Source of the DNA: Owenia fusiformis
Taxonomy: Eukaryota > Annelida > Polychaeta > Sabellida > Oweniidae
DNA: 64,000 nt
Direction: 5' to 3'
NCBI GenBank assembly: GCA_903813345.2
Contig: CAIIXF020000008.1
Coordinates: forward strand, 35,116,867 to 35,180,866
The position numbers and the translations under genes were made by a program. The notes under the pieces were generated by a model that worked only from the letters and a program-made list of their open reading frames with translations, was not told the DNA's origin and ran no database searches. Below are positions 5,663 to 62,211 of this stretch, piece by piece. The number at the start of each line of letters is the position of its first letter. Position 1 is the first letter of the stretch.

Positions 5663-6198
5663 CTGAAAATACAAAATAAGCATACAATAAATAAACCTCA
5701 TATCCAAATAATTTACTACATAGATACAGTAGGGTTACCTCATTGTAGTGTCATAATTTACTTTGGGTGATATTTCTAGATTTTTCATAGAAAAACTATT
5801 AGCGCAGTACACTGATGAACTTCTTTTTCCAAATTGAGACTTGTATTTTATAGAATCGGTCTACTGCACATTGCCACTTCTTTGGACAATTGTGATATTC
5901 TTACATCTTTTGAATGCCATCTTTTGAATATTCATAATTTGATAAGGGTGATATGTCTACATTTTTCATAAAAAAATTATTAGCCAAGGAGACTGTTTCC
6001 CAAACTGAGACTTGTCCTTTGAAAGAATATTTCTTGTTTTTCATAAAATGTAAAATGTTAACATTGCAAAGTCACTAAAGAACAACAAAAACTCTAGTTT
6101 GAGAAAAAAGTGCCATATAAAGATTTGAGAAGATTTTTTTTGTATGAGAGATTTCAAAATTCTATAGCTCTTTCGATTTTGGACTATACTGTATCTAA
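5663..6198. other. Gene-free intron start
   Basis: AT-rich sequence with a loosely repeated motif about GGTGATATTTCTAGATTTTTC (near 5767 and 5947). I see no gene or clear element. Confidence 0.6.
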
Positions 6199-7077
6199 TA
6201 GAGGTGCCAAGTATTAACCGGTTAACCGGTTAACCGCCGATAATGCCTTAACCGGTCTGTGTTTTTATGGGTGGTTAGTTGACCGTGTATAATTCTGTTA
6301 TTTCCCGCGCTAATATTGCATGCTCATCTGTTTGGTTTTAAAGTGTCAGTTTCACGTAAGCTACTCATACATGTCGTCATAAGTCCGATAACTCCTTACA
6401 AACATCCAATCAGCAACTTTAATCCCTGACACATTGCTTTCCCGAGCTTACTTTGCATGATAATCTGTTTGTTTTTCAAGTGTCAGTTTCATGTGAGCTA
6501 CTCATACATGTGATAGTTCCGATCACTCCTTACAAACATCCAATCAGCACCTTTAATCCCTGCCACATTGCTTTCCCGCGCTTACTTTGAATGTTAATCT
6601 GTTTGTTTTTCAAGTGTCAGCCATGTGTAATCAACTCATATTGCAAAACTATTTCATAAATAAATTATATGCATTTTTTAATTCTTCAGTTTTGTTATTA
6701 TTGTTGTCTATCAACGTCGCCAAAATGTCAAAGGTCAAAGCCTCGCTTTGGTAGTGAGAAAATTAAAATCAAAATAAACACTAATCAGCTGCAATTCTCG
6801 TTGTTATGGTGCGTTCGTGGTTATTCCAAAGGTAAACCAGTGTGGTAATTTAGAGGTACCGGTAGTCAGGTAGTGTATGAATATAACAGAGTAAAGCTTG
6901 ACGAATGTACAAAATAAACGCTGATATATCATTTTTCCAATTTTTTCAACTTTCAAGATCGAAGATGAAGATTTCATTTGAAATTATCAGTTCAAATTTC
7001 CCGCCGGTTAACCGACTTTAACTGGTAAAAACATCCGGTTAACCGGTTAATGCTCAAGCAGTTAATTGACACCACTA
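6199..7077. mobile_element. hAT-type non-autonomous transposon
   Basis: The ends TAGAGGTGCCAA and (inverted) TAGTGGTGTCAA are imperfect terminal inverted repeats, flanked by the exact 8-bp duplication GTATCTAA at 6191-6198 and 7078-7085, as hAT elements make. Sub-terminal clusters of GGTTAACC, itself a palindrome, occur at both ends. The interior carries about three tandem copies of a 130-140 bp unit (6330-6620). No transposase is visible. Confidence 0.85.
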
Positions 7078-7225
7078 GTATCTAAGGGATGTTTCAGAAA
7101 GATATAAGAAAAATTGTTCTGGGACCTTTGCAATACTACTCTTTTTCTCTATTTTTCTGTCACATTTTCAAAGGACTAAAATTCTCATTCTAAACTGTTT
7201 AATGTTTATATTTGCATAACCACAG

Positions 7226-7557
7226 CACTGGCGGATTAGGGGGGGGGGGCCTGGGGGCCCGGGCCCCCCCCCTTGGGTGGGCCCAGAAAAAAAAAATTGG
7301 GCCCAAAAATTTTTTTGGGCCAAACAAGGCCTTCAGGCCCTAAAAAGTAGGCCTTTTTGGTCATTACAGGGCCTTTTAAGGCCTTATTTTTTAATTTCAG
7401 GCCAAATTTTGAAGAAAATGGGCCTCAAAATTTCAAAATTTGGGCCCACTTTTGGATTTTAGGGGCCCAAAAATTTTTTTCGCGCAAGCGCGGACGTTTT
7501 TTTTCTCTGACCTGAAATTTGGGCCCCCCCCCTTGTTGGTTCCTGGATCCGCCCCTG
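7226..7557. mobile_element. MITE with GGCGGAT ends
   Basis: A 332-bp element whose ends (CACTGGCGGATTAGG and, inverted, CAGGGGCGGATCCAGG) form an imperfect inverted repeat, flanked by 5-bp duplications CACAG at 7221-7225 and 7558-7562. The inside is built of G/C homopolymers and GGGCCC palindromes. GGCGGATCCAGG-ended MITEs are widespread in animals and usually assigned to hAT; here the 5-bp duplication leaves the superfamily open. Confidence 0.75.
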
Positions 7558-7689
7558 CACAGTGAGCCTGGTTACAAAAATGATAGGAGGAACTAAACAA
7601 GGCACAGGATGTGAACGAGATCACACCATCAAATAGGCAGACACTATGAACCAGGAAAACTGTTCTCCTATTATGTTTACAAATTTCAA

Positions 7690-8690
7690 GAAGAAGAAAA
7701 CAATTTGGCTGCCCAAAAGTTAATCAGCTCTAGTACTTGATATCCTCTATCATTTGTGTAAATTTGAAGGAGATCCGATGAGCAGTTTTCCTGAAATGGC
7801 GATGACAAGATTTTTTGAAAAACCTTCAAAATGGCCACCAGAAAACAAGATGGCCGCCCAAAAGTTAATCAGCTCTAGTAATTGATATCCTCTATCATGT
7901 GTGTAAATTTGAAGGAAATCCGATGAGCGGATTTTCTGAAATGGCGATGACAAGATTTTTCGAAAAATCTTCAAAATGGCTGCCAGAAAATAAGATGGCC
8001 GTCCCAAAATTTAATCAGCTCTAGTACTTGATATCCTCTATCATTTGTGTAAATTTGAAGGAAATCCGATGAGCGGTTTTCCTGAAATGGCGATGACAAG
8101 ATTTTTTGAATAACCTTCAAAATGGCCACCAGAAAACAAGATGGCCGCCCAAAAGTTAATCAGCTCTAGTAATTGATATCCTCTATCATGTGTGTAAATT
8201 TGAAGGAAATCCGATGAGCGGATATTCTGAAATGGCGATGACAAGATTTTTTGAAAAATCTTCAAAATGGCTGCCAGAAAACAAGATGGCCGCCCAAAAG
8301 TTAATCAGCTCTAGTACTTGATATCCTCTATCATTTGTGTAAATTTGAAGGAAATCCGATGAGCGGTTTTCCTGAAATGGCGATGACAAGATTTTTTGAA
8401 AAACCTTCAAAATGGCCACCAGAAAACAAGATGGCCGCCCAAAAGTTAATCAGCTCTAGTACTTGATATCCTCTATCATTTGTGTAAATTTGAAGGAAAT
8501 CCAATGAGCGGTTTTCCTGAAATGGCGATGACAAGATTTTTCGAAAAACCTTCAAAATGGCTGCCAGAAAACAAGATGGCCACCCAAAAGTTAATCAGCT
8601 CTAGTACTTCATATGCTCTATCATCTCTGCGAATTTGGAGAAAATCTGATGAGCAGTTTTCCTTAAACGGCGATGACAAAAAGCGGGACG
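7690..8690. repeat. 145-bp tandem repeat, about seven copies
   Basis: The unit contains AAGATGGCCGCCCAAAAG, TTAATCAGCTCTAGTACTTG and GGAAATCCGATGAGCGG. The regular 145-bp step is clear at 8041, 8186, 8331 and 8476. The array ends in a (GATCACGACCAC)-type run at 8690-8725. The short frames on both strands simply repeat with the unit and are not genes. Fragments of the same family lie at about 2773-2845 and 20150-20340. Confidence 0.9.
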
Positions 8691-8954
8691 ATCACGACCA
8701 CGATCACGACCAGGATGACGACTATATCCCACCGATGGTGTGATAAAAATTGAAAGAAAATCAAACCAAAATTGCCAAGTGCTTTCTGGTTTCGGCCATC
8801 TTGGGACTATAGCTTCACCTTAGGGCCATTCTTTATGATAGTGTATCTGTAAAACTCCTAAAAAATTCCTTTTTAGGTTATTTTTCATTTTTCATATTAC
8901 CCTTATGTATCAGATGTTATACAAATTAAAATATGTCCAGTAAATACAGAATAT

Positions 8955-11955: not shown

Positions 11956-11965
11956 TGTAGTTCCT

Positions 11966-13858
11966 CTACTCAATGTACTTGATGATTGCCAGATCTCCTT
12001 TGTATGACCCCACAATGAGATCACCTTGTTGATCAATGGCAACACATTGGGGGTTCTTACCACCATCTTCAGCCACCAACAAGTACTTGATGAATTTCCC
12101 ATTAGGGTCTACCATGTGAACTCTGTGGTTGTTATGATCAGCAATGATGATATTGTCCTGAGAGTCAATGCAGACTCCCTCTGGATGATTCAACTGACCT
12201 ATTCCTGCAACCCTGAAGCCATATGCACCTGGTACCTCTTCACCTTGCATGGTGAACCTCTTCACACAATAGTCACTAACATCAGACACAAACATGATAC
12301 CTTTGTGATTTATTGTTATATAGCGAGGGTCTGCGAGCTTGCCTTTGCCAATAGTAGCCAATACACTCCCATCATTACATTCAACAAGGTAGACACACTT
12401 GGCACCCCAATCAACAACCAGTAGTTTACCATCTGCTGTCTCACATAATCCACAGGGATCTTGAAACTCCCCAATATTCCTCTGATGCTCCAGCTTTTTA
12501 TCAAATACTGCTATGCATTTGTTGTTATTATCAGCAGCTGCATAATATTGAGACTGAATACAACACACATCCCAGAAGTTACCCTGGGCTTTATGTTGTA
12601 GGGTAAAGGAATCAGCAGTATAAGTTGCAAGACCTCCCCAACCATGAGATACAACAATGTTGTTGTTGTATCCTCTTGTGAGGCCACATATGTATTTTAC
12701 TCCTGGGCTCTTATCAGGTAGATGTATCTTTCTGGATATCTGTACTACCCCCATATTAGATGTATCAAGGATGCCAGGTTGATATTTGTAGAGGTCAAGA
12801 GGTACAACATTCTCTTCAGGCATAGTGGACCATTCTTCCAGTTTCTTTAGTACAGTAGCACTATAGTTGAGGACATCTACAGGATGATTATATTTTCTGA
12901 GATTATTAAGTTGAAGCAATGTACTCTCAGTTATCCCTTTGTTAAGTTGGAACTGGTCCTGGTTTGCTTGGATCTTCTTCTTTTTCTCATTGGCAGCAGC
13001 TTTGGCTTTATTTCTGAGCTTATCAAAATGTTCATCCAATTGTTTCCTTTTAGCAGCATGGTCTGCATCTATGTCTCGAAGTAGAGCTTGTGTGTTTTTC
13101 TCACATGATTGAATGGAATCATTGGCTTCTTTGATGAATTTATCGAATATTTCTTTCCTCTGGTTGGCTAAACCAAGCAATGCTGCTATGTTGCGTTCCT
13201 CTCCTTTTGCTGCTTCTTCGATGGCTTGACAGCTGTGACCAGGATGTTCCGTGATAGAACAATCCCTACAAATGACAGCTTTATCTTGCTTACAGAAGAA
13301 TCTGAGAGGCTGATCAGGATGCTTTGGACATTCTATGTTGCGCTTTATATAATTGTCCAGCGCAGCTCTGGCATCTTTCTCAGCATCTCCTGTTAACCCA
13401 TAGATTGTGTGGGATTGGGTTGCTCTCGATCTTCGATGGGCTTTATTGCAGTGTTTGCACATGTGTTCAGCACACTCAACACAACGGGACATGGCAGGTA
13501 CAGCTTCACCTTCTTGAATACAAATATCACAGTTGACATTCCGATTTTGTCCTTTGGTCAGCTGGTTTTCTAGGATCTCTACCATAGACTTGATAGTTAT
13601 GTTTGTGCCATATGCATCAGCGCCATTCTTTGGAATCTCGAGTTGCTCATTGCACACAGGGCATGGATATCGATCATTCCCTTTTGCTTTATGTTCTTTC
13701 ATCCATTTCCCAATACATCCCTTACAAAAGGAATGCCCACAGGTAATTGATTTAGGATCAGTCAATGTCCCGAAGCAAATAATACAGATCAAGAGTTCTT
13801 TGTAGTCATCGACTAAAACTGTTTGGGGATTTGCAGATGCCATATTTCTTTTCATCAT
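11966..13858 (-). CDS. Intronless TRIM E3 ubiquitin ligase with C-terminal beta-propeller
   Basis: A single 630-residue frame. A RING finger lies at about 25-69 (C25xxC28...C40xH42xxC45xxC48...CPVC). B-box 1 starts at C110 (CDIC...CVEC..HMCKHC, to H150) and B-box 2 at C177 (CPKHPDQPLRFFCKQDK, CRDC). A coiled coil rich in K/E/Q runs from about 218 to 330. From about 390 to the end come NHL-like blades (KLLVVDWGAKCVYLVE, GIMFVSDVSDYCVKRF, NIIIADHNNHRVHMVD). This is the TRIM2/3/56/71-type architecture. RING plus B-boxes predict ubiquitin transfer in the cytoplasm; substrate unknown. Such genes are expanded in marine invertebrates, often linked to innate immunity (family knowledge). The start is the first ATG of MMKRNMASAN. 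An upstream AG (TTTGTAG near 13894) could end a 5' UTR intron. Confidence 0.92.
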   Translation of the reverse strand: MMKRNMASANPQTVLVDDYKELLICIICFGTLTDPKSITCGHSFCKGCIGKWMKEHKAKGNDRYPCPVCNEQLEIPKNGADAYGTNITIKSMVEILENQLTKGQNRNVNCDICIQEGEAVPAMSRCVECAEHMCKHCNKAHRRSRATQSHTIYGLTGDAEKDARAALDNYIKRNIECPKHPDQPLRFFCKQDKAVICRDCSITEHPGHSCQAIEEAAKGEERNIAALLGLANQRKEIFDKFIKEANDSIQSCEKNTQALLRDIDADHAAKRKQLDEHFDKLRNKAKAAANEKKKKIQANQDQFQLNKGITESTLLQLNNLRKYNHPVDVLNYSATVLKKLEEWSTMPEENVVPLDLYKYQPGILDTSNMGVVQISRKIHLPDKSPGVKYICGLTRGYNNNIVVSHGWGGLATYTADSFTLQHKAQGNFWDVCCIQSQYYAAADNNNKCIAVFDKKLEHQRNIGEFQDPCGLCETADGKLLVVDWGAKCVYLVECNDGSVLATIGKGKLADPRYITINHKGIMFVSDVSDYCVKRFTMQGEEVPGAYGFRVAGIGQLNHPEGVCIDSQDNIIIADHNNHRVHMVDPNGKFIKYLLVAEDGGKNPQCVAIDQQGDLIVGSYKGDLAIIKYIE

Positions 13859-15170
13859 GTCAGGGGCTGTGTTATCTACAAATACATTAAAATGACATTC
13901 AAGACTTAATCAGTCTCAAGTAGATTTACCATATAAAGTCGATCATCCTTTTTGAAAAACACATATGTGTGACATTATGATAAGACACTTCAAACTTGTC
14001 TTAAAGTAGGGGGCAGTCTCTAAACTGTTAAAAACAAGATAACATCTTTACGAAAAATGGCAGCCATTTTGAATTTCCTATCGACAAGATTTCCTTTGTC
14101 CCTAGGCATCAGCATATAAAATCTAAACAAAATCCATCCACTGGTATTTGAGTTATCAAAGATTATGTTCTTTAATGAAAAATGGCAGCCATTTTTAAAC
14201 TTCCTAAGTTGAACATTTAGCTGAATTTAAGGGTGTTCAACTTACACATGTTTTACTGTACCTGCAAAATATGTTATGAATAAGACCTTACTTTTCTTTG
14301 ATTACCCAAGATGTCTTATAAGAAAAGCTGGGAAATTTTCATAAATAAGCATTTAAAAATAAAACAGTTTTTAACTCAATTACCTTGAATTTGTGTGTAG
14401 CAGGTGATCTATCATAACCCAATGGTTTGGTAGCATTTGCTCTGTCTTTTTGTGATTCACCTCAGTTATCAGTTTGAGTCACTTCAGGGAATTGTAAAAG
14501 TTTGAATAATCCTAAGATATTTGTTGTTGTCTTTGAAGTGTCTGTCTAGATCATTACAAGTCTGAGTAAAACTCACGTGTTAGGTGTTAAATCATTTTTT
14601 ATTTCTTTACACTTTATACCTGATAATACATGCAAATTCTTAATCACTTTTCTTCATACTTGAAGGTTTATTATCATTTGTACCTATTTGGGTTGATATA
14701 TGACTGTCCTAAGTTCAATTAGACGTTCATGGGTGTCAAGTATGATGTGGCGTGTTGTTGACTTCTTAGTACATCCACACTTTCACCTGTATTTTTGTCA
14801 ATTATGGTTTCATTCCAAAAATAAGGATTATTCATATGTGGTCCATGTATATGTCTGATCAAAATGTGATCTTCATGATACAATTATTTCAATAAAGGTA
14901 TTTTAGAGAAATTCTTGTATCCTGGAACATCATTTTGCTTTCGGAATTTTTTATTGCTAACACTACTCATCTCCTAAAGAATTAGTTTGGATTTTTGAAC
15001 ATTTCCTCCATGATAACAATTTCAGCAATTGTACATGTAGTATTCTTCTTTGCAAAAAAGATAAAAGAGGTCGACAAAAAGAGACATATCATTCGAGACA
15101 TTCAGCAGTACAAAAGTCAACGACTGACTCAAGTTAGATTAACCTTTAAAAACTAAATCATATTTGTATA
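13859..15170. other. TRIM 5' flank, no gene seen
   Basis: Contains two copies of a motif around AAAATGGCAGCCATTTT (near 14055 and 14180). No reading frame of interest. The TRIM promoter should be here but shows no clear TATA box or other motif. Confidence 0.5.
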
Positions 15171-15171
15171 T

Positions 15172-15905
15172 ACGAGGGGGGGGGTCAATAAGTAATGGAT
15201 GCTTTTTTACACAGATACTATTTACAGACCAATCCCTTTGATTTTCCTACCAGTGATACATCATTCAATATTCTATCAATTCTGAAGATTTGAAGGCAAA
15301 ATATATAATACCTGTTGATATATTCTTATTTCTGTGAAGGAGTTACAGGTACCCCGGGACCGACATTTACGTCACATATTCAGTTTTTAGCCAGTTTGGC
15401 AAATTTCAGTTAGATTTGAACTTTTTATATGCAACACGTGTTGTGTTGTTTGAAATTTTTCGCTGACTGGTAACACATAGAGAAAGTATTGTAATGTCAG
15501 AGTGTTGTATGGAAGGGGTTTGCAGGTCACTTTGAGAAAGCATTGTGGAAGAAAGGGTGGTGAGAGAAGGGAACACCCTACTCCATATGGACAATGCACC
15601 TGCCCATAGATCTCAAAATGTCCAGAAAACAATATCCCTGGACCTCAAAAAAGAGCCATTGGCCAATGCACTATATTACCTAGATCTGCTCACATGTGAC
15701 TTATTTATTCTATACTACTTATTTCTATAAAGAAAGGACGCAGGTTTATTGCCATTGATGAAATAAAACAACCCTTGCAACTGCATCTTGCTACCATGTC
15801 AGAGAATGGATTCAGCCTTGTCTCACAATCTTGAGTTAAGAAGATGAGGAATTGGGTACATGTAGCACTTGATGGAACCTATGTAGAGGGGCCTGTGGAA
15901 TGAAT
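15172..15905 (+). mobile_element. Decayed mariner-type transposon
   Basis: The left end resembles a mariner terminus (GAGGGGGGGGTCAATAAGTA). At 15575-15800 the plus strand reads LLHMDNAPAHRSQNVQK, matching the HxDNAPAH box of mariner transposases, followed by a corrupted 'YSPDLAPSDYFLF' region. The right end is not clear and much of the interior is missing. Confidence 0.7.
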
Positions 15906-17395
15906 GTGGCATGAATACCACATAGTGATGATAAAATGAGAATTTGCTGGTGAGAATTTGCGCAAACGAAGGTGGTACGCAAGAGACGTATTGTGTCAGT
16001 CATCGCTAAAGCTCTGGGGCTTTCCCCCCTCTTAAACGTGACCTCTTTCTAGATATTGTATATATCCTTACAGAGCTCACCCCTGAAAAATCAACTTATG
16101 AATTTGAAACTGATTTTGTGAAAATGCAAACATAGAAATATCAAATTACAAAAATCAATAAGTCAAGTGAGATACAGCATTTTGATTAGCAATATAATGT
16201 AAGCCATGTGTATTTTTTCAACGACTGATCCAGACATAACTTCCTCGTTGAACTCTGACGTCATTCTAGATTTATGATTTCAAACTCATTTGTTTTTCCT
16301 TAACATAAAAATATATATGCACAATGTATAAATAGTGGCATTTTAGGGACCTCACTTGAGAGAAAAACACATTATGATTTTTAAAATTTTGATATTCCTA
16401 CAGAAGTATAAGAGATTTTTATTTTAAAAAAATCAAGTACCATTACAAAAATTCTCCAGGGAACATCCTTATTCCAGATAAATATAAACAACAATGGCTC
16501 CATATATCCTAAGAACAGCATGGTACAAGGAAATGTATCATATTGCTTCTTTGTGGAATCATCTGCATCTGAATCATACATCAATGTTAAATGATATGAA
16601 TGACCTAACTTAGAAACAAAAATAAACAAAATTAAAGTCTCTTTATCACCACATCATATTTCTAAGACAAATAATTAAAACGACAGTGTTTTTTGATTTT
16701 TTAGAAAATATGAATGTAAGTGGAATTAAGAAATTATAACTCCTTGGAATAAACTTAATTTTTAATTAACTAATTAATCAAATTAATTAATTAATTATAA
16801 CTCCAAGGAATACCAAAATAATCTTAATGTACAAATTCATGAATATGTCATAATTAATTAATTTAATATGTATGATCTGGTAAAACACTCTATTCACACA
16901 CAAAAAAAATTCATTGGTGAAATCTCAAAATTAGTACCAATTAAAGGTTGGATGGCTGTTTAATCTACTGTAAAATGTATTTGATACCTGTGTACTACGC
17001 TTGGCAAAACATTTATGTGAAACAATTTACCACTAATACACATCTTTCCACCAAATATGAAAAAAGCCATCCAGCAGTTATTTTCAAATGAACAGACGAA
17101 TGGACAGACAGACATAGGAATGGAGGTCTTCACTCTATCCCTATTGGACATTGGGATAATAAAGACCCAAAAAACAATACCCAAATATATACAAAAGTGA
17201 TGACTCAATTTCTGGAAAATCTAATTATCTAATCAAGATCCTTTTTCTTTCCTCTTCTTGAAAAATTAATAAAATACAAACAAAGACATATGCAAGATTA
17301 AAATAGCAAGTACTGCTGGCAAAGTATGAAGTCAACACATTCAACCTCAATGCACAAGGGTTTGGATAAGGAACAACAGAAGTTCAGTTGCATAA
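15906..17395. other. Gene-free AT-rich stretch
   Basis: AATTAATTAA-type runs at about 16745-16865, and a repeat tail with (ACAGACAG)-like sequence near 17095-17120. No gene seen. Confidence 0.5.
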
Positions 17396-17589
17396 CAGGC
17401 CCGTAGCCAGGAAGGGAAGTTAGCAGAGTTCGGGCCAAAAATTCTTTCAAAATCATGCAGTTTTTCACCATTTTGAGCACTTCTCAAGTAATTTTAGCCA
17501 TATTTGGGCCAAAATTGTCAAATGTGAACCCCCCCCCTGAAAATGTTTGAAAACTGAACCCCCCTTAGCAAATCCTGGCTACGGGCCTG
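17396..17589. mobile_element. Complete CAGGCCCGTAGCCAGGA MITE
   Basis: A 194-bp element with perfect 17-bp terminal inverted repeats CAGGCCCGTAGCCAGGA. Flanks CATAA (left) and CATAT (right) fit a slightly mutated 5-bp target duplication. It is the same family as the copy inside LRR3 at 41501-41706 and the relics at 1440-1735. The ends look hAT-like; no transposase. Confidence 0.85.
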
Positions 17590-17722
17590 CATATTTTTAT
17601 ATTACTATTTGAGAATGTTTAAGCCAGTTTAATGTTCATATTATTAGAAAAATATAATTCCATGAAATTAATTCATTTTTTCATTCATCAGGTTTCTATT
17701 ACATCGATCATACTTCCAAATA

Positions 17723-18097
17723 AGGGAGCATGTCAATGTAGCACAAAAAGCTATATATTATCAGTTAAGTCCCAGACACCCCCCCCCTCCCCCTGTTAAC
17801 TATATATGAAAAATGTTGACACACACAATTTTTAACAAAAAAATATTATCATCACGCACCTCGTTGACGAGTCTTTCATATTCATTAGATGGGGTTTTAT
17901 ATATTGGCTGTGCCGTGATAGTGAAAAAGAAGTTCAAAATTTGAAAAACTCTGTAATATTTTCAATATGGGATTAAAAATGGCTGGTGCAATACCCCGGG
18001 GATCAATGTCGGGGAAGTTTATTTTTTGTATTCAAACACCCTCCTAACTGATAATATATAGCTTATTTGGCAACATTGATCTTTTGACGTGCTCCCT
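17723..18097. mobile_element. TA-flanked MITE
   Basis: A 375-bp element with inverted ends AGGGAGCATGTCAA and TTGACGTGCTCCCT, and longer inner arms (AGCTATATATTATCAGTTA facing TAACTGATAATATATAGCT). Flanking TA dinucleotides suggest a Tc1/mariner-mobilised element. Confidence 0.75.
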
Positions 18098-19267
18098 TAC
18101 CTTTTTCAGTTTTAGATTCATGGAAAACGAATTGAGCTTTAGTTGTACATATTGTATAGTGGTCAACTGGCTCAAGAGCATGGTTATAATTTTCCTCAGG
18201 CCGATTGAGATGAAGTCACCATTTATAATAAGCATGTTATTTTGCTCTCTAGCTGTACAAATAAATACGCTGGGTCCATTTCTTTGAAGATTTCTTTGTA
18301 ATTAGATTAACCATTCACGGGCAAGTAACCTCAAATATGAGACATTGCAGTAGAAAGTGACAATGACAAAAATAAAGCGTCTTATTAATGGTTACAGAGT
18401 TATGGCTTATAAGCTTCCTCCTGATCGAGTTTTGGCACTTCATATGTTTCTTCGAAGAAAAGTCAAAACCATTTGAGCTTCAAGAGACAGACAACATAAT
18501 ATAGGACAAAAAAATTTCTCCCAAGAACATACAATTATACATAAATATATAATATATTATGATTGTAAGGATAAAGATGAAATATCACATGAAGATAAAT
18601 TTAAAACTGACCAAGCAATAGTGAGATCCAGACAGACTATGAACAAAAGAGAGAGGAAGATCAAATATCACAAGAGGACATATCTAAACTGACCAGGCAA
18701 TAGCGACATTAACAGACTACTACAAATAGCAATGGCAAAAAACATACTGAGGGTTAGTATATCAGAGCTTTTGTAATTCAAGAATTATTTTTTTACTACA
18801 CAATAATCTAGTGTAACATTTTATGATTTTCATAACCTCACTAGGGGAACATCAAATAATTTGAGTCAAATTGTATTGTATTGTATTGTATGACAATGCC
18901 TAGCATGACCATAGTAATGTTCAAATATACTACACTGTCTGCTATCACTGTGACATTTTATATTGTATGTAATGACAATGCCTAGTATAACTGTGACAGT
19001 GTATAAATACAAGCATGACAGTGGGAATATCAAAACATATAGGAATACCTGCCATGATCGTAACAACGTAATATTATGACAATTCCTGTATAAACTTCAC
19101 AATGTTAAAATATATTGTAATGTTAAAATAAAATATATGATTACGACTACTATGACGATTCACCTTGATAATGTATGGCAATGACTGGTATGGCATTTGG
19201 TATTGACATAATGCATGACAATGTAAAGCGTAGCACAACCATATGAGTTTAACGCTGATTATATATA
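18098..19267. repeat. Gene-free stretch with degenerate repeats
   Basis: From about 18870 to 19260, loose repeats of GACAATGCCTAGYATRAC with spacing near 60-100 bp and a TATTGTATTG run at 18871-18890. No gene seen. Confidence 0.5.
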
Positions 19268-19885
19268 CAGTGCTGATATATAATAATTAAGGGTGCGTTT
19301 TCAAACTAAACAGAGTGCTCCTACCAAAATAAATTTGCCTACATACCCCTGAGACTCTTATCTGATAGATAGAATGCACAAATAAAACAAAAGTTTTGCG
19401 ATTATAGGTAAAAAGTTCTCTTGAAATTACGAAGTGATTTTACCTGTTAATTCTGTTCATGGTCCGCCATTTTTGCGGAAGTTACACTGAAACGCAAACT
19501 CCATGAAACGAAACGAAATCACTAGAAAAAACATGGCATACATTGTGCGCATGTGCAGCAAAGTTTTAACCAATCAGATTATTTGATTATTTTGCGCACA
19601 TGAATTATTTGCTTCTGACATGTCTGAGCACTTACAAGCTTACAACAATAAACAAACCTGGCAGAGACTACCCTGAGCCTACTTCATTTTGGCGAAATTT
19701 CAGCTCAAACTCGTGACAAATGAACTATGCATACGCTGGTGTGAAGCCTTGGAGACACTCATTTTGGTAAATATGATTTATGGTGTATACTTTTCTGCAG
19801 TTTGTGTGAGTTTGGGACATTAAATGTTAAAATTCAAGAAAATATGGCAATAAAACGACTAATCAATTAATATATACCAGCACTG
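19268..19885. mobile_element. hAT-like MITE with CAGTGCTG ends
   Basis: A 618-bp element with ends CAGTGCTGATATAT and (inverted) CAGTGCTGGTATAT, flanked on both sides by TATATATA, which would be an 8-bp duplication but lies in AT-rich DNA. No coding capacity. Confidence 0.7.
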
Positions 19886-20353
19886 TATATATATTTCTTT
19901 TTAAACAATTTTATCCTACCCTGATAATATTAAAATCTATTACTATGTCTGGTATAAACGTGACAATATAAAATATTTCATCATGTTTAACAACCTCAAC
20001 TACATGTATGTGTGACTTCTATATTTGTACATTTCTATGTTAAATTTCACATTAATTTCTTTAACCCTCATATTTTATTAATAATTTCCTAAAATTCTGT
20101 TTTTAGTCAAGAAGGTTTGATTCGATAACACACTTCTGTCAGAAACAAGATGACTGCTAAAAAGTAAATCACCTCTAGAACTTCTTACCATGTAAATTTG
20201 AAATAAATCCGTTTAGTGGTTTTCCCGGAATCATGATGATAAGATTTATCTGAGAACTTCCGAATGGCCGAGTGCAAGATGGCAGATGAAAAGTTAATCA
20301 GCTCTAGAACTTCTTATGTATCTGTTAAGTGGAATTCCTGGAATCGCATCCTC

Positions 20354-24492: not shown

Positions 24493-24506
24493 ACAAACTC
24501 GACAAC

Positions 24507-24618
24507 CAAGACCCACCTAATGCAAGACCCACATAATGCAAGACCCACCTAATGCAAGACCCACATAATGCAAGACCCACCTAATGCAAGACCCACATAA
24601 TGCAAGACCCACCTAATG
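24507..24618. repeat. 16-bp minisatellite just after the LRR1 stop
   Basis: Seven exact 16-bp units alternating CAAGACCCACCTAATG and CAAGACCCACATAATG. LRR2 has a single unit at the same place (near 33061), so the expansion is specific to LRR1's 3' UTR. Confidence 0.95.
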
Positions 24619-24695
24619 CAACTTGCCTGGGCTTGTTATTTTAACAATGTAGATGTTATCCATATCATGCAAATCTTAAAAATCACAAATGGAAA

Positions 24696-24701
24696 AATAA
24701 A
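24696..24701 (+). terminator. LRR1 polyadenylation signal
   Basis: AATAAA about 200 bp past the stop. It is conserved after LRR2 (33155-33160) and absent after LRR3, where the sequence jumps. Confidence 0.55.
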
Positions 24702-36441: not shown

Positions 36442-36454
36442 GTGTATGTCATAT

Positions 36455-41490: not shown

Positions 41491-41500
41491 TCAACCCAAA

Positions 41501-45569: not shown

Positions 45570-45868
45570 ATTACTAACTGTAGTGTAGAATGCTTATACA
45601 TACGAAAAAAATCTAATATCTGATGGCCTTATTTCACTGTCTGTATTTTCAAATACCGGAATTATATGCATTCTCATAAGGAGTCATGTTGACCTTTTTT
45701 TGTAAATATACTTATGTGAAAACTGCTTCCAATTAAGCCTGAATCCTTTACTTTGTGTAAATATGAATCAGAAATAGGGGTATTTACCTTATTTGAGGTA
45801 ACAAGTTGATATACAGACAGTATGTCAAGTAGCCTTTTTTACTTAGATGATGGATGAAGCAAGGACAT

Positions 45869-48800: not shown

Positions 48801-50783
48801 ACAGTTGATTTTGATGTGGCAGTAACTGGCAGTAACTTGTGCTGAAAATGTCAATTTGGATTGCATATGGCCTATGGTGAGGGGAAATTCCTCCAGAATG
48901 TACGACCTGTCTTAGATATTTCAAGGCCACTTGGCCATGAACGAAGTTTAGCCCTTACCGTTTTTCATACAATCTCTAGATGCATTCTGCTACTACTCTT
49001 AGTCAACTGATTTGCAGGAATAGAAGGTGTACCCAGAGGTTACGCAATTGTTCTAAAGCTTTAAATCTTTTTTGATACCCTAAAATTAGAAGACTAGAGT
49101 CCTTATTCATTCTGATGCATTCTTAGCCACAGTTTCTATCACCACATGAATGTGGCTGGCCTACTCCCACTGCTGATACTGAGGCCACAACATAAAATGT
49201 AGGTCATGGGGTAGATACCTGTGTCAAGAGAACAGATGCAAATGTTTGAAAGCAGATCTGATTTGCTCTGAGCTATGTAGCTGTAGGAGAGACTGTCAGA
49301 ATCCATAAATTGTGACTCCTTTGATTAGGTTTGATTAGTATTGCCATTGGTACTAGAAAGGAATAAATGGCTGTTGAGGTTCATTTTTTATAACTGTTAA
49401 TCATTATTGTATATTAATAATATGACAAAACTAGACTATATTCACTATTTTGAGCTCATTTGAGTAGACAATATGATATATCTTTGTTTAAATTTTTAAG
49501 GTAAAATTAGGTCATTCTTGACCTATCATAAACTACACTACCAATCTCAAACTGCATCAAACAGCATGGTTTCATAAACAGTGCTGTAAAAACAGTACTG
49601 TACACAGCTATTTTCTAAAACAGTACTGAGCTGTAAAAACAGTACTGTACTACGCTGTCCAAAACAGATGGTGTTAGAATAGCATTGTACATTGCTATAT
49701 AGTGCAGTACTCTGACTGCACTGTTCAGTACTGTTTACAGCGCTGCAAGAAGATGTTGCGGATTGGGGGTGTAATATGAAAATGTAATTTTCTTATAATT
49801 TCCAATCATTTTTTCACTCCTTGGGAATGATAAAACAGGACTAAATATACCATCTTAAGCTCATTTGAGGTGACTATGTCTCATATTTAGAAAATTATTA
49901 AGGTAAAATAAGGTTACCCCAGGGCCATCAAGAGCTTAAGTGAAAATTTTGATTTTTTAGATATATCCGATCATTTTCTACATCTTATTGGAAGAAATAT
50001 GATAAAACAGAACTATATGCAACATCTTCAGCTAATTTGAGATGCATATATTATATATCTGGGAAATTATTAGGGTAAAATATGGTTACCCCTGGCCCTT
50101 TAGAACCGAAAATGAAAATTTTATTTTTTTTTATTTTCAATAATTTTTTTACATCTAATTAGGAATAATATGACAAAACAATACTTAATGCAACATTTAG
50201 AATTCATATGAGGCCCAAACATCGTGTATCTTAAAAATTATTAAGGTAAAATAAGGTCACCCCTAGGCCGCAAGGGCTTAAATATCCAAATTTCGATAAT
50301 TTATTTCTCAAAAAATACATGAGCTACACAAGCCATATATCATATGAGTGATAAGCACCTATATCTCTATTAGTATGAATTTTTTCAGGATGATCAGACA
50401 TCACATTCTTGAAATATAGTACTTGATGTCCTATATTTGACCCTTTGAAAGATGAATTCACGCTAGATAATTAGGTTAAAATGTATTTTCCTTCCTAAAC
50501 ACCACTTCTAAAATAGTTTTTTCTCAATTTCAAGGCTCAAAGCAATGACCAAATGAAGTCATTTAAAGAAATATACTTTACAACTATTTTTATTTATTTT
50601 ATTATAATGTACCCCCTCCACGCCTGATAGGGGTGGGGGTCAGAGGCTTAAAATCCATGAAGACCACCCCAAATCAATTGCCCCGAAATCATTTTTCATT
50701 CAGATCATATGTTTCTACAACTGTGCCAAGTTTGTTGCTTTCCTGAAAAAGTCGAACTACCAAAGGGACATCTGACTGCGCTA
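45869..50783. mobile_element. 4.9-kb DNA transposon with about 1-kb terminal inverted repeats
   Basis: The ends TAGCGCAGTCAGATGTCC and GGACATCTGACTGCGCTA are exact inverses, and the arms stay recognisable over about 1.0-1.1 kb on the left (to about 46950), slightly longer on the right because of a nested insertion. CAT flanks both sides (45866-45868, 50784-50786), and the related class B flank near 36170 shows the uninterrupted GGTCATAGAA, supporting a 3-bp duplication. The arms contain about four 150-bp subrepeats. The middle has no long frame; two facing pieces encode ETLEEDGKKIVT (plus, near 48640) and ETLEMDGKKIVT (minus, near 47880), perhaps relics of one protein. Superfamily not assigned. 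Confidence 0.8.
49555..49755. repeat. Nested CAGTACTG-rich block
   Basis: Lies in the right arm of the 4.9-kb element but not at the matching place in the left arm. Built from palindromic AACAGTACTGT and CAGTGCTG motifs; probably a small hairpin element inserted later. Confidence 0.55.
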
Positions 50784-54019: not shown

Positions 54020-54374
54020 GCTTGTCTACATTGTCTAATATTGCATTATCCATTCTTATCAGCAAATATTACTTGTCAACATTGCCTAATATTTCATCAT
54101 CCATTCTTATCAGCAAATGTTACTTGTCTACATTGTCTTATATTGTATTATTTAATCTAATCAGTGAATATTACTGGGCTGCATTGTCTAATATTGCACT
54201 GACAAGATTAATCAGTGAATATTACTTGGCTGCATTGTCTAATATTGCACTGACAAGATTAATCAGTGAATATTACTTGGCTGCATTGTCTAATATTGCA
54301 CTGACAAGATTAATCAGTGAATATTACTCAGCTGCATTGTCTAATATTGCACTGACAAGATTAATCAGTGAATA
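54020..54374. repeat. 51-bp minisatellite after the SDR7 stop codon
   Basis: About seven units of 51 bp (TTGGCTGCATTGTCTAATAT, TGCACTGACAAGATTAATCA, GTGAATATTAC). Each aligns base for base with the last 51 bp of the SDR coding strand (TTGGCTGCATTTCCTAATGT, TGCCTTGTCGAGTCCAATCA, GTGAATG), so the array is an amplification of the SDR's terminal codons. It begins at the stop codon itself (54375-54377). Confidence 0.9.
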
Positions 54375-56013
54375 TTACTTGGCTGCATTTCCTAATGTTG
54401 CCTTGTCGAGTCCAATCAGTGAATGTCCGCCATCTTGAACAACACATGCACCATTCATCATTGACGCATCATCAGATGCCAGGAATGCAATCAGTTTCGC
54501 AATTTCATCCATGGTTCCAATTTTATACTTACACCAATATGGCTTTAGGAAAAAACATTCAACATACATGGCCCTTTTAAATTTCATTGAAAATATTAGA
54601 AAGTCTTTAGATTCAGGGAAAACTAGTCTTGGTATTTATATTGATTTAACCAAAGCCTTTGACACTGTTGATCATAAAATATTACTTCAAAAACTTGAAT
54701 TCTATGGCATTCGTGGAGTAGCTCTTTCTTGGTTCACAAGTTATCTTGAAAATAGAAGAATCATCACAGAATTTACAAAGAAGAATGTTTCACTCGACCA
54801 ATTTACAGAGACTGATGTGAAATATAGATCAATTGAAAATACAGTTGAATATGGAGTACCTCAAGGGTCAGTAATAGGCCCCCTCTTATTTATAATCTTC
54901 ATTAACGACATATATCTAGTCTCAAATAAACTATCCTTTGTTTTATATGCTGACGACACAAATATTGCGCTTACTGACAAAAATATTGAAAATCTAGTCA
55001 TTGAAATGAATGAAGAATTACAAAATGTCTCAAATTGGATGAAGGCAAATAAACTAACTCTTAATGTTGACAAAACCAAGTTTATGATATTTAGCAATAA
55101 AAAAGATCTGAACAACAAGAATATTATCCTTAAGATTGACAACCAGCCAATTGAAGAGGTGAAAGAAATTAACTTTCTTGGTGTTATCATTGATTCGAAG
55201 TTACACTGGTCTCCTCACATTAACGCTATATGTACAAAAATCTCTAATTTGATTGGTATATTATACAGGACTAGACATCGACTGACTTTGAATGCCATGA
55301 CTACAATTTATTATTCAATGATTTATTCTTACCTGAGCTATGGAAATATCTTATGGGGAAATGCCATAAAAACACTCATTCAGAAATTATATATATTGCA
55401 AAAGAAATTCTTAAGAGTCATTACGTATTCTGATAGCTTTGCCCCTTCAGGTCCACTATTTCAGAAGCTAAAGATTTTAAACGTATTTGATATACATTCC
55501 CACCAAACAGCTAGCTTTGTACAAAAAACACTTTCTGAATCGCCTGAATTCCCTTTTAAAAAATTCAACCATCTTTTCTCATTAAGATCAACAATTCACT
55601 CACATGACACAAAATCAAAAAATGATTTGATTGTTCAACCTTTTAGAACAGAATATGGAAGGAAATCAATTGGGACAAGTGGCCCATCAATTTATAACAC
55701 GTTATCTTCTGATTTGAGAAACTCAGTTCATATTAAGATGTTTCAACGAAAGTTTAAGTTCAATTTGTTAAGTCGTTATTAGTTATTTTGAATCATACTT
55801 CCACTATGTTACATCAAGGTAAAAAAAAGTAGATCCATGCTTTGTAATTTATGTACACTACAATAACTGTTCTAACATTACATGCTTTGTGAATAACACA
55901 TTATATTTTTTCAAAACATGGAATCCATACACCCCGCGGGGTGTCCTTTTCATATCACTTGTAAATTTATATTGTATGAAAACTAGAATTGAATAATAAA
56001 TTGAATTGAATTG

Positions 56014-56044
<31 letters not shown>

Positions 56045-56697
56045 ACCAATTGGGACACATCTTGCTACATTGGAGTAAAATTCCAGCTCTGCATCTTCTG
56101 GAACACCTGCCCTCTCAAAGGCTGGAGTTTTCACCAAGCCTGGACATAGAGCATTGACACAGACTCCTTGGCCTCCAAACTCCAATGCTGCACATTGTGT
56201 GAACATGTTCATCCCAGCTTTAGCTATGCTGTAGAAAGGCATCTGGTCTGATACTTTGCATCCAACCATATTTGAAATATTTACGATATTTCCATTGTTT
56301 TGTTTCAATTCTGGCAAGCATATTTGAGATAGATGGATTGGTGCTCGCAATAAGACTTTAACTAAGTTATCAAACAACTGCAGTGATCCTGATGTAAGAT
56401 CATCAAATATAATATATCCTGCATTGTTTACCAAGACATCAATCTTGCCAAATGTTTTAGTGGCAGTTCCATGGATGCTTTTCAGCACATCATCATCTCC
56501 AATATCTCCTTGAATGTAAGGAAACTTTGCATTATCGACAGCAACTTTCTCACATTCAGCAACAGTTTCTTTGATGGTTGATAAATCTCGCCCATGTATC
56601 AAAACACTTGCTCCCTCCTTAGCCAATAAGATTGCAGTTGCTTTGCCAATGCCACTACTCGAACCAGTAACAATTGGGCACTTTCCAGAAAATCTCA
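54375..56697 (-). pseudogene. SDR7: short-chain dehydrogenase split by a LINE
   Basis: The N-terminal part (56697 down to 56043, MRFSGKCPIVTG to RCVPIG) and the C-terminal part (54525-54375, KIGTMDEIAKLIAF to LGNAAK) flank a LINE that entered at the VPIG/KIG junction. Apart from that break both parts are open. The active-site Ser is changed: NISN where paralogues have NISS (position 143), so it would be inactive even without the LINE. YSIAK is kept. The class A flank lies to the right (56698-57190). Confidence 0.9.
54526..56042 (+). mobile_element. 5'-truncated LINE (CR1/Jockey-like) with open RT frame and poly(A)
   Basis: The plus strand encodes about 418 residues to 55782 without a break: GFRKKHSTYMALLNF, the RT motif LGIYIDLTKAFDTVDHKILL, YGVPQGSVIGPLLFIIFIND, the catalytic FVLYADDTN, then INFLGVIIDSKLHWSPHI and a C-terminal FQRKFKFNLLSRY. 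The endonuclease and the RT N-terminus are missing, as in a normal 5'-truncated copy. The 3' end is an AATTGAATTG-type tail plus about 30 A. Only a 3-bp TTA could be a target duplication. The intact frame suggests a recent insertion. The frame's apparent ATG (54511) belongs to antisense SDR sequence. Confidence 0.9.
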
Positions 56698-57199
56698 TTT
56701 TGTTTAATCTTGATTGCTGGGTTACCAATTATTTCTTTATTCACTATTTAGTGTTGTTATCAATAAAGTGATATAAATACAAAAACACAACTGCATTTAT
56801 ATTACGTGTCTTCTTTTATGTCCATTGTCCTTTATCATAACAATAGGTCAACAGGTTTCAATAGTTAATAAATACCTTTTTGTTTCAACTTTTTAAAGAC
56901 CATGCAAATAACTTTTTTCAAGAGAGATCTAAAGGTCAAAATGTTTCAGGCAATGTACTGTTATACTTATCTTGAAACTGTGTCTCGTCACATACACAAC
57001 TACACAAGGGCTTTTAAACAGTCAATTTTATAGATACACAAAATATTTTACAGAGTATTCCTATTGACATTATAATTGTATAAATGAGCTTGCAAAACAT
57101 TAAAACCTCATGATCACATCATAATCAAAATTTTATAGTTTCCTTAATTTTTCAATTCATCAGCAGAAGTAACGAGTTTTTACCAATTCACGAATTAAT
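56698..57199. promoter_or_regulatory. Class A flank of SDR7
   Basis: Matches the sequence upstream of SDR1, SDR3 and SDR5 (AATAAAGTGATATAAATAC near 56762). No LRR gene follows; instead the SDR8 minisatellite starts. Confidence 0.5.
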
Positions 57200-58149
57200 A
57201 ATCCCGTAACTGCATTTTCTAATATTTGTTTTATTTCTTATCAATATTCATTTACAATTTGCGACAAAAAGCGTGTCTAATATTGGATTATCCATTTTAT
57301 TGTTACACTACATTATTCAGTCTAATCAGCAAATGTTACTTATCTACATTGTATAATTATATCAATATCAATTATAGCCTAATCAGTGAATGCTACTTAG
57401 TTACATTGTCTTATATTACATTGTCCAATCTATTCAGCAAATGTTACTTGACTGTATTGTCTTATATCACACTATCAAGTCTAAACAGCAAATATTACTT
57501 GTCTGCATTGTCTTATATTGCATTATCCATTCTAATCAGCAAATGTTACTTGGTTACATTGTCTTATATTACACTATCAAGTCTAAAGAGCAAATATTAC
57601 TTGTCTGCATTGTCTTATATGGCATTCTTTAGTTTAGTCAGCAAATGGTACTCAACTGCATTATCTCATATTGTATTATCAAGTCTAAACAGCAAACGTT
57701 ACTTGGCTGCATTGTCTTATATTGTATTATCAAGTCTAAAAATGAATGTTACTCGACTGCATTGTCTTATATTGTATTATCAAGTCTAAAAATGAATGTT
57801 ACTTGGCTGCATTGTCTTTTATTGTATTATCAAGTCTAAACAGCAAATGTACTTGGCTGCATTGTCTCATATTGTATTATCAAGTCTAAAAATGAATGTT
57901 ACTTGGCTCCATTGTCTTATATTGTATTATCAAGTCTAAAAATGAATGTTACTTGGCTGCATTGTCTTTTATTGTATTATCAAGTCTAAAAATGAATGTT
58001 ACTTGGCTGCATTGTCTTTTATTGTATTATCAAGTCTAAAAATGAATGTTACTTGGCTGCATTGTCTTATATTGTATTATCAAGTCTAAAAATGAGTGTT
58101 ACTTGGCTCCAATGTCTGATGTTGACTCATGCATTCAAATCAACAAATG
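57200..58149. repeat. 50-51-bp minisatellite after the SDR8 stop codon
   Basis: About 18 units (TTGGCTGCATTGTCTTATAT, TGTATTATCAAGTCTAAAAA, TGAATGTTAC), again aligning with the SDR's last 51 bp. Units nearest the gene are 50 bp and almost identical; those farther away are 51 bp and more diverged (CAGCAAATGTTAC variant). The frames on the plus strand are Leu/Ser/Tyr-rich by-products. Confidence 0.9.
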
Positions 58150-58950
58150 TTACTTTGCTGCATTTTCTAGTGTTGCCTTGTCGAGTCCAATCAGTGAATG
58201 TCCGCCATCTTGGACAACACATGCTCCATTCATCATTGATGCATCATCCGATGCTAGGAATCCAATAAGTTTGGCAATTTTGTCTACATCTCCTACTTTA
58301 CCCAATGGGGTACATTTTTCTACACCAGAATATATTTTGGACACTACTTCTTCTGAAACACCTTCTTTCTTGAAGTTTGCTGTTTTTATCACTCCCGGAC
58401 ATACAGCATTGACACGAACTCCTTGGCTGCCATACTCCAATGCTGCACATTGTGTGAACATATTCAATCCTGATTTCGCTATACTGTAGAAGGGACCGAA
58501 GTCAGATGCAGTGCACCCAATCATGCTTGAATTATTTATAATACTTCCGTTGTTTCGTTTCAATTCTGGCAAGCATATTTGAGATAGAAGGATAGGTGCC
58601 CGCAATAAGACTTTAACAAAGTTATCAAAAATCTCAATAGCTCCTGACAGATCATGAAATGCACCATACCCTGCATTGTTTACCAAGATATCAATTTTGC
58701 CAAATGTTTTTACAGCAGTTTCATGGATGCTTTTCAGAACATCATCATCCCTGAAGTCTCCTTGGATGTAAGGAAACTTTGCATTCTCGACAGCAACTTT
58801 TTCACATTCAGCAACAGTTTCTTTGATAGTGCTTATATCTCGTCCATGTATCAAAACACTTGCTCCCTCTTTAGCCAATAAGATTGCAGTTGCTCTGCCA
58901 ATGCCAGTACTCGAACCAGTAACTATGGCACACTTTTCTGAAAACCTCAT
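58150..58950 (-). CDS. SDR8: divergent short-chain dehydrogenase/reductase
   Basis: 266 residues, intact. N-terminus close to the family (MRFSEKCAIVTGSSTGIG, NNAG), but residues about 96-225 differ widely (SGAIEIFDN with one residue fewer; NNSSMIGCTASDFGPFYSIAK; FKKEGVSEEVVSKIYSGVEK). The last about 35 residues (FLASDDASMMNGACVVQDGG to LENAAK) are again identical to paralogues. Active-site Ser, Tyr and Lys are kept; the tetrad Asn is replaced (VKVLLRAP). The mosaic suggests gene conversion at both ends, and the divergent middle, which includes the substrate loop, suggests a different substrate. Class B flank; stands head to head with SDR9. Confidence 0.88.
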   Translation of the reverse strand: MRFSEKCAIVTGSSTGIGRATAILLAKEGASVLIHGRDISTIKETVAECEKVAVENAKFPYIQGDFRDDDVLKSIHETAVKTFGKIDILVNNAGYGAFHDLSGAIEIFDNFVKVLLRAPILLSQICLPELKRNNGSIINNSSMIGCTASDFGPFYSIAKSGLNMFTQCAALEYGSQGVRVNAVCPGVIKTANFKKEGVSEEVVSKIYSGVEKCTPLGKVGDVDKIAKLIGFLASDDASMMNGACVVQDGGHSLIGLDKATLENAAK

Positions 58951-60525: not shown

Positions 60526-61329
60526 ATGAGATTTTCTGGAAAGTGTGCAATTGTTACTGGTTCGAGTAGTGGCATTGGCAGAGCAACTGCAATCTTATTG
60601 GCTAAGGAGGGAGCAAGTGTTTTGATACATGGACGAGATTTATCAACCATCAAAGAAACTGTTGCTGAATGTGAGAAAGTTACTGTCGATGATGCAAAGT
60701 TTCCTTACATCCAAGGAGACATTGAAGATGATGATGTGCTGAAAAGTATCCATGAAACTGCCATTAAAACATTTGGCAAGATTGATATCTTGGTAAATAA
60801 TGCAGGATATAGTATATTTCATGATTTAACATCAGGATGTCTGCAGTTGTTTGACGATATGGTAAAAATAATGTTACGAGCCCCAATGTGTCTGTCACAA
60901 ATGTGCCTGCCTGAGTTAATAGAAAATAAAGGAAATATTGTAAATATATCTAGTGCTCTAGGGGTGAAAGCTACAGATATTTTGCCATTTTATGGCATAA
61001 CCAAATCTGGATTGAACATGTTTAGCCAATGTGCAGCTTTAGAGTTTGGTCGCCAAGGTGTCAGAGTTAATGCTTTATGTCCAGGTCTGATAAAGACTGA
61101 TTTTATAAAGAAGGCAGGGGTTCCCGAGGAAAAAGAGACAGAACTATACTCAAAGAAGACAAGATGCGTCCCAATAGGTAAAATTGGAACCATGGATGAA
61201 ACTGCAAAGCTGATTGCATTCCTGGCTTCTGATGATGCGTCAATGATGAATGGTGCATGTGTTGTTCAAGATGGCGGACATTCACTGATTGGACTCGACA
61301 AGGCAACATTGGAAAATGCAGCCAAGTAA
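60526..61329 (+). CDS. SDR9: short-chain dehydrogenase/reductase, the only plus-strand copy
   Basis: 267 residues, intact. Residues 1 to about 100 and 218 to 267 are nearly identical to SDR5/SDR6, while 105-215 diverge (MVKIMLRAPMCLSQMC, NISSALGVKATDILPFYGIT, FIKKAGVPEEKETELYSKKT). TGSSSGIG, NNAG, Ser143 and YGITK are kept; the position of the tetrad Asn holds Met. Its own leader is AT-rich and unlike class A or B close to the ATG. After the stop, the last 51 bp are duplicated once almost exactly (61330-61376 region). Likely active; substrate unknown. Confidence 0.9.
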   Translation: MRFSGKCAIVTGSSSGIGRATAILLAKEGASVLIHGRDLSTIKETVAECEKVTVDDAKFPYIQGDIEDDDVLKSIHETAIKTFGKIDILVNNAGYSIFHDLTSGCLQLFDDMVKIMLRAPMCLSQMCLPELIENKGNIVNISSALGVKATDILPFYGITKSGLNMFSQCAALEFGRQGVRVNALCPGLIKTDFIKKAGVPEEKETELYSKKTRCVPIGKIGTMDETAKLIAFLASDDASMMNGACVVQDGGHSLIGLDKATLENAAK

Positions 61330-61405
61330 CATTCACTGATTTGACTTGATAAATATGACAATTTGGACAAGCAATATTAACTAATTAGACTGGATAATGC
61401 AAGTA
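61325..61405 (+). repeat. Single post-stop duplication of the SDR9 terminal 51 bp
   Basis: ACATTCACTGATTTGACTTG starts right at the stop and repeats the coding ACATTCACTGATTGGACTCG 51 bp earlier; the copy is also 51 bp, followed by a partial third (ACTAATTAGACTGG..GCAAGTA). This looks like the starting state of the long arrays after SDR7 and SDR8. Confidence 0.8.
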
Positions 61406-61427
61406 ACATTTGCTGACATATTTAAGG

Positions 61428-61433
61428 AATAAA
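61428..61433 (+). terminator. SDR9 polyadenylation signal
   Basis: AATAAA about 100 bp after the stop codon. Confidence 0.5.
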
Positions 61434-61539
61434 GCTAAAGACCTAGATTTTATGATTTTTTAAAAGACCGAAATAGCGAATGAGAATAAAATTTGAGGTC
61501 ATATATTTGACATAAATCATAAAACACCAAAGCGTAGCA

Positions 61540-62170
61540 AATCCAATCGAACAGCCATGGATGGCATTTTTACAAACAAAGTATATAGCGAAAATGGCAG
61601 CCATTGTTCAAAATGGAGGCCTTCTACCAAAAGTGTCATGAGACAGTGTGCCATGCTTATAGTATTTATATACCAAATATGAACAAAATCGCTCCACTGC
61701 TTTTTCGGGTCATAATGAAATATGTTAAAATGGCGGCCACTTTTCAAAAATGGTGCCCATTTTTCAAAATGGCTGCCTTCTACCAAAAGTGTCATTAGAC
61801 AGTGTGCCATGCTTAAAGTATTCACATACCAAATATGAACAAAATCGTGCCACTACTTGTGCTTCTTTAATATCTACATTTCTAGCTTTGATAATGTCCT
61901 ATATAATTTTTTACATTTAAAACATATTGCTATTACAGTTTTACATATTGCACCTAAATTACTGTAAAATCGGCACTAAAATGGCCATCATTTTTGAATT
62001 AGCGGCCATTTTGAAAATCGGCTTTCGAGAAGAACTTGTATCCCCATAGGGTATATGTGTACAAAATATGAACAAAATCGGGCCAACTGTACTTGAGTTA
62101 TTGCCCGGACTGACGGACTGACGGCACGGACGGACGGATGGAGGCGTTCCCTATATCCCTCTGCCCTCAC
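61540..62170. repeat. Tandem repeat block ending in ACGGACGGACGG
   Basis: Two copies of an about 180-bp unit (TTCTACCAAAAGTGTCAT, CAGTGTGCCATGCTTA, CAAATATGAACAAAATCG) at about 61618-61850, a third degenerate copy, and a terminal run of GACGGAC repeats (62107-62140). It resembles the other 'AAAATGGCNGCC' repeats in architecture. It abuts the EXOC5 exon within about 40 bp. Confidence 0.8.
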
Positions 62171-62211
62171 CCTTGGCAAAAGCTGGCATGCTAGCATTTC
62201 AAGTAACTTAC

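Follow-up and report, generated by a model that had tools for sequence, protein, structure and literature searches.

We analysed a stretch of 64,000 nucleotides from the annelid Owenia fusiformis (the window; assembly GCA_903813345.2, contig CAIIXF020000008.1, here C8, positions 35116867-35180866), in which one 56.5-kb intron of the exocyst gene EXOC5 holds a nested, locally duplicated array of genes. The array consists of short-chain dehydrogenase/reductase (SDR) genes, leucine-rich repeat (LRR) genes and a TRIM-NHL gene. At the level of the genomic sequence this arrangement is confirmed. It is very probable that EXOC5 is a single-copy gene, that one of its introns has been a site for single-exon genes and that the array within it grew by segmental duplication.

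The host gene and its 56.5-kb intron

The intron occupies positions 5663-62211 of the window on the minus strand (56,549 bp) and is the eighth of 14 in our model. It is in phase 0, with the donor gtaagt and the acceptor tttcag, and separates the coding exons at 62212-62374 and 5554-5662. The upstream exon is flanked by the acceptor ttacag and the donor gtaagt, and the downstream exon by the acceptor tttcag and the donor gttagt. Joined, the two exons encode ...FAFKRCQA up to the junction and LSSQNSLAENAV... after it, and the alignment of the protein to the solved chain 5h11_A passes through this junction without a gap. The initial annotation had joined the two exons in phase 0 across a single intron, and the splice sites and the alignment uphold this prediction to the base. 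The remaining 13 introns measure 175-4,344 bp, the large intron being 13 times the length of the next largest.

The model of EXOC5 was begun from Sec10 profile matches flanking the window on both sides. It lies on the minus strand, extends from 66933 to -5428 in window coordinates and has 15 coding exons encoding 641 residues; any further 5' end, with the start codon, would lie upstream of its beginning at 66933. The exons are ordered on a single strand, with 11 in the flanks (seven upstream and four downstream) and four in the window. The two that border the large intron are placed by the model and by the 5h11_A alignment. They are followed by an exon at 1086-1209, placed by the model, and by the last within the window at 337-405, placed by the model and the genome search. 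The joined protein matched PDB 5h11_A with 567 bits over query residues 131-636, and its next match was yeast SEC10 (5yfp_E, 77 bits). The chain 5h11_A is labelled 'Uncharacterized protein' and we take it to be fish Exoc5. Sec10 homology covers most of the modelled protein.

The profile PF07393 matched in five places, all at the EXOC5 locus. When the genome was searched with the joined protein (498,259,871 bases in 525 contigs), 15 of the 15 matches fell at C8:35.1114-35.1838 Mb and no second EXOC5 locus was found in these contigs. Across the assembly, EXOC5 is a single-copy gene with, as modelled, an open coding sequence. The initial annotation had named a misassembly, or exons belonging to different genes, as outcomes that would overturn its proposal. 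In the assembled sequence we found neither: the exons form one locus, and the 124 kb examined around it contain no N.

A nested array built from a repeated module

Within the intron lie one TRIM-NHL frame, ten SDR loci and three LRR loci. These are the counts first proposed for the cluster, and they were borne out by tblastn matches and reading frames, with 14 tblastn pieces grouped by hand into the ten SDR loci. Five of the SDR loci (S4, S5, S6, S8 and S9) and one of the LRR loci (LRR1) are intact. The strand of EXOC5 carries nine of the ten SDR loci and the TRIM gene; on the opposite strand are the SDR locus S9 and all three LRR loci. The initial annotation had SDRs and TRIM running with EXOC5 and LRRs against it, which holds for every locus but S9 (60526-61329, plus strand). 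That all SDRs are co-directional with the host is ruled out by this locus.

Self-comparison resolved positions 20576-45868 into three tandem modules, S1-LRR1-S2, S3-LRR2-S4 and S5-LRR3-S6, each comprising an SDR gene on the minus strand, an LRR gene on the plus strand and a second SDR gene on the minus strand. Two families are indeed present, as had been described, but the pattern is not one of alternating families: one module of three genes is repeated in tandem, in three copies. The block 22887-27369 matched 31516-35870 at 84% over 4.6 kb, covering an LRR gene, the opposite-strand SDR gene and the DNA between them. A further pair, 34738-36177 and 44440-45868, matched at 90%, and 31471-32420 matched 40554-41500 at 97%, with LRR2 and LRR3 97% identical over 950 bp. 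The similarity extends across genes of opposite strands and the DNA that separates them; in this part the array therefore expanded in place through duplication of DNA. The duplicated SDR-LRR-SDR blocks thus support growth inside the intron, as the initial annotation had supposed.

The nested genes and their relatives

The intact SDR genes comprise S4 (35064-35867), S5 (37743-38546), S6 (44766-45569) and S8 (58150-58950), all on the minus strand, together with S9, the sole SDR locus against EXOC5. S4 and S6 are each 91% identical to S5. The profile PF13561 matched over the full length of the SDR (E values of 3.4e-52 for S5, 3e-51 for S9 and 1.3e-49 for S8). Classical SDRs carry the motifs TGxxxGIG, NNAG and YxxxK, and S5 reads TGSSSGIG, NNAG and YSIAK at these places. 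By profile and motifs the intact copies qualify as predicted classical short-chain dehydrogenase/reductases; the best solved chain was 1spx, labelled 'short-chain reductase family member (5L265)'. Ratios of nonsynonymous to synonymous change (dN/dS), here and below simple pairwise estimates without significance tests, were 0.17-0.33 in all ten pairs among the five intact SDRs.

The other SDR loci, also on the minus strand, are damaged or fragmentary. S1 (20576-21238) is in frame in its 5' part and carries, in place of its 3' end, a sequence that is also present twice near C8:35.83 Mb. The frame of S2 (26579-27369) is broken near codons 26-32, S3 (28515-29421) is broken and in part internally repeated, and a tblastn piece marks a fragment at 36242-36445. 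S7 (54378-56698) is split by a reverse-transcriptase element on the plus strand (54439-56042), whose frame at 54439-55782 is followed by a run of 29 A at 56014-56042; it is probably a 5'-truncated element of the type lacking long terminal repeats. Tandem repeats of 50-51 bp lie directly downstream of S8 (57387-58168) and of S7 (54021-54401), and similar sequence is also present downstream of an SDR copy outside the intron, L015.

The TRIM-NHL gene is a single-exon open frame of 647 codons from stop to stop (11966-13909, minus strand), with RING, B-box and NHL domains recognised by profile. Genome-wide we counted at least 86 TRIM matches, one of them in the window. The next four lie at C8:34.34-34.51 Mb with 87-89% identity, and dN/dS between the nested gene and these relatives was 0.24-0.33. 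One of the four, L044, shares 0.8 kb of downstream flank with the nested gene, and the other three share only about 50 bp of it unbroken. With open frames and dN/dS well below 1, both the SDRs and the TRIM gene look used.

LRR1 (22921-24492, plus strand) is a single-exon, uninterrupted gene. By eye it encodes a Thr-rich stalk, a transmembrane-like segment and a tyrosine-rich tail; its hydrophobic stretches, likewise seen only by eye, are a candidate signal peptide and transmembrane helix. An imperfect palindrome of roughly 600 bp (75%; 22284-22891) lies directly upstream. A scan of LRR1 and LRR3 with PF13855 gave E values of 1.3e-47 for LRR1 and 3.1e-41 for the LRR3 ectodomain, and LRR2 is 82% identical to LRR1. 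LRR2 (31550-33046, plus strand) has an in-frame TAA in the stalk at 32408-32410. The same TAA is found in LRR3 (40630-42355, plus strand) at 41488-41490, with an insert of a repeat of about 200 bp at about 41500-41706. Their shared stop and 97% identity suggest that LRR2 and LRR3 split recently or that the stretch was converted. The frame of LRR2 stays open past the TAA, and the open tail of LRR3 is in another frame than its ectodomain. Past the stop, both retain more than 200 open codons, which cover the membrane segment and the tyrosine-rich tail. An intron that would remove the stop was considered and rejected, as inspection of the surrounding DNA by eye, with no splice predictor run, gave no convincing donor. 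In both loci the stop precedes the membrane segment; they could be dead or could produce an ectodomain alone. Between LRR1 and either of the others the ectodomains gave a dN/dS of 0.35-0.38 and the tails one of 0.34-0.41. Between LRR2 and LRR3 the ratio was 1.18 in the ectodomain (16 and 4 changes) and 0.48 in the tail (13 and 7 changes), too few to judge.

The genome holds at least 176 LRR matches, those listed including five from the window, and at least 145 SDR matches, 12 of which are pieces within the window. Comparing the lists by eye, we found that, among the matches listed, all three families (SDR, LRR and TRIM) have their closest outside relatives on C8. For the LRR genes the nearest is at C8:38224112; this locus, L062 (C8:38222000-38227000), consists of one 802-codon frame, whose STQTTKP stalk is very long and whose tail is shorter and different. 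For the SDRs the nearest include, after L015, an array at C3:8.05-8.12 Mb; further SDR arrays lie at C12:7.43-7.45, C2:19.67-19.69 and C4:26.76-26.82 Mb. The same comparison of the matches listed revealed no other SDR and LRR relatives side by side, and the nearest such pair that we noticed, on C4, was separated by about 0.2 Mb.

L015 (C8:35835516) has an open frame and lies 0.65 Mb away; the sequence it has in common with S5 and S7 ahead of the start codon measures about 235-300 bp. To place it we used a tree of SDR DNA with 17 rows, nine from the intron and eight from outside chosen by hand; it omits the 36242 fragment, the part of S3 at 28515-28928, the 3' portion of S7 and the majority of the outside matches. 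In this tree S8 and S9 branch early and L015 groups with S3 (99/96) amid copies from the intron, a placement suggesting that one copy moved out of it. As the open copy L015 groups there, residence in EXOC5 would not be required for an SDR gene of this kind. In the DNA examined downstream of L015 and of the four TRIM relatives, five loci in all, we found no run of eight or more A.

Most of the intron outside the named genes was read by eye as short frames. Scans with Rfam and with ARAGORN gave no match. Between S6 and S7 there is a 4.9-kb element (45869-50783) with inverted arms of about 1 kb that are 84% alike. A short frame within 14030-20350 has the look of a mariner transposase remnant; it contains HMDNAPAHRS, presumably a mariner transposase motif, and gave no match in Pfam.

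Possible consequences for the host and known nested genes

We propose that one EXOC5 intron became a site for single-exon TRIM-NHL, SDR and LRR genes, and that the SDR-LRR-SDR part then expanded by segmental DNA duplication, for example by unequal crossing-over, in units of about 9 kb. EXOC5 would be transcribed through the array and the 56.5-kb intron removed from its pre-mRNA in the ordinary way, while each nested gene would be transcribed from its own promoter. Own promoters seem most likely because L015 is open away from EXOC5 and shares upstream DNA with S5 and S7, and because transcription of EXOC5 cannot serve genes of both strands.

Several points weigh against this proposal or parts of it. 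The support is genomic sequence, from which splicing and nested transcription are predicted. All 14 modelled EXOC5 introns have GT-AG ends, a tally that arises partly by construction as exon ends were placed by eye at GT and AG. In addition, the 14 residues that start the exon at 62212-62374 have no counterpart in 5h11_A, and six residues present in 5h11_A are missing from the model at the 1086/405 exon junction, so that details of the model away from the key junction may be wrong. Within the array, five of the ten SDR loci and two of the three LRR loci are broken. On the SDR tree the label 'intron' has to change three times, starred branches imposing two or more of these changes, and a single change of this label occurred in none of 200 bootstrap trees, with the fork at S8 left open; a single arrival of the SDRs in the intron is not shown. 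Finally, the flanks that L015 and L044 have in common with the nested genes could be untranslated regions, and the missing A-runs only mildly favour DNA-based copying for the first or long-distance copies.

From other loci we would guess at a cost to EXOC5 while the same-strand nested genes are active, in the form of intronic polyadenylation or interference. A more specific version, that transcription of the same-strand SDRs ends EXOC5 early after the exon at 62212-62374 and that SDR copy number tunes EXOC5 output, we consider unlikely. If true, early termination would yield a shortened exocyst subunit ending ...KRCQAVSYLKC, as the frame reads, and copy number would tune EXOC5 output between individuals or tissues. 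On the EXOC5 strand of the intron the hexamer AATAAA is present 67 times, where dinucleotides predict 65.7 (the spread was not computed). This number is near expectation and argues that poly(A) hexamers have not been purged, so that depletion as a sign of adaptation can be set aside for this strand. On the opposite (plus) strand of 5663-62211 the hexamer is more frequent, with 90 against 68.8 expected.

The array might instead be tied to EXOC5 in function, co-regulated with it or expressed from its transcript, as the orientation of nine SDR loci and the TRIM gene could be taken to mean. We regard such a tie as very unlikely: the opposite strand carries all three LRR loci and one SDR, the closest outside SDR, LRR and TRIM relatives among the matches listed have open frames far from EXOC5, and the AATAAA count gives no hint of adaptation to readthrough. 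Co-transcription with EXOC5, a question the initial annotation had raised, is possible, and nothing we found requires it. We give still less credence to an assembly error that inserted the array between EXOC5 exons really close together. Assemblies do fail in repetitive DNA, and the array is repetitive, but no N interrupts the 124 kb, EXOC5 exons on both sides are ordered on the same strand, and neither half of the gene was matched elsewhere in the 525 contigs. Least likely of all is a split EXOC5, its halves transcribed as separate units or joined by trans-splicing, as the exceptional length of the intron and its load of other genes might suggest, since the cis donor and acceptor of the intron are canonical, the phases match and the conserved protein is ungapped at the junction.

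The preferred reading, a nested array grown by duplication inside an intron of a single-copy host, can be compared with published cases. The initial annotation had called such an arrangement unusual. This was too strong, as nested intronic genes are common in animals and intron-borne gene clusters are classical (PMC8527503, PMC10835880). A ctenophore genome contains 2,357 nested intronic genes in 1,654 hosts (PMC8527503), and about 6% of Drosophila genes are nested (PMC3786989). An intron of the Drosophila phosphodiesterase gene dunce holds the glue-gene cluster of Sgs4 and four ng genes (PMC10835880). As in EXOC5, several genes share one intron of an unrelated gene, the ng genes being short and intronless. 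The EXOC5 array differs in that two unrelated families make up a three-gene module that is repeated, next to a TRIM gene, and in its host, an exocyst subunit. In rodents the C2MC microRNA cluster in intron 10 of Sfmbt2 (PMC6346411) was likewise made by tandem duplication inside one host intron; it consists of imprinted microRNAs, whereas the EXOC5 array is protein-coding.

LRR genes in host introns also have precedents. Vertebrate LRRTM genes are nested antisense in alpha-catenin introns, and of the 19 nested structures that were found in neither frog nor chicken, 12 had a nested gene of the LRR superfamily (PMC3933685). Here too LRR genes, putatively transmembrane, lie on the opposite strand of a large host intron; where that account describes one LRR gene per host, EXOC5 has three tandem copies with SDRs. 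Drosophila 2mit, an LRR receptor gene antisense within an intron of timeless2, is similar in kind, but is described there as the sole protein-coding nested gene of its host (PMC3786989). The mouse pair H13/Mcts2 illustrates how activity of a nested gene can lead to intronic polyadenylation of its host (PMC13309782). That pair has a single nested gene, and for EXOC5 any such effect is a guess.

Among the papers listed in searches of the open-access literature, none was on an array nested in EXOC5. What this locus adds to the known cases is its size and its repeated two-family module, the arrangement itself being well known. The EXOC5 intron is a clear and well-bounded example of a two-family protein-coding array that, on our reading, expanded within a conserved single-copy gene. 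It would serve as a natural experiment on the load of other genes, on both strands, that an intron can bear before expression of the host suffers.

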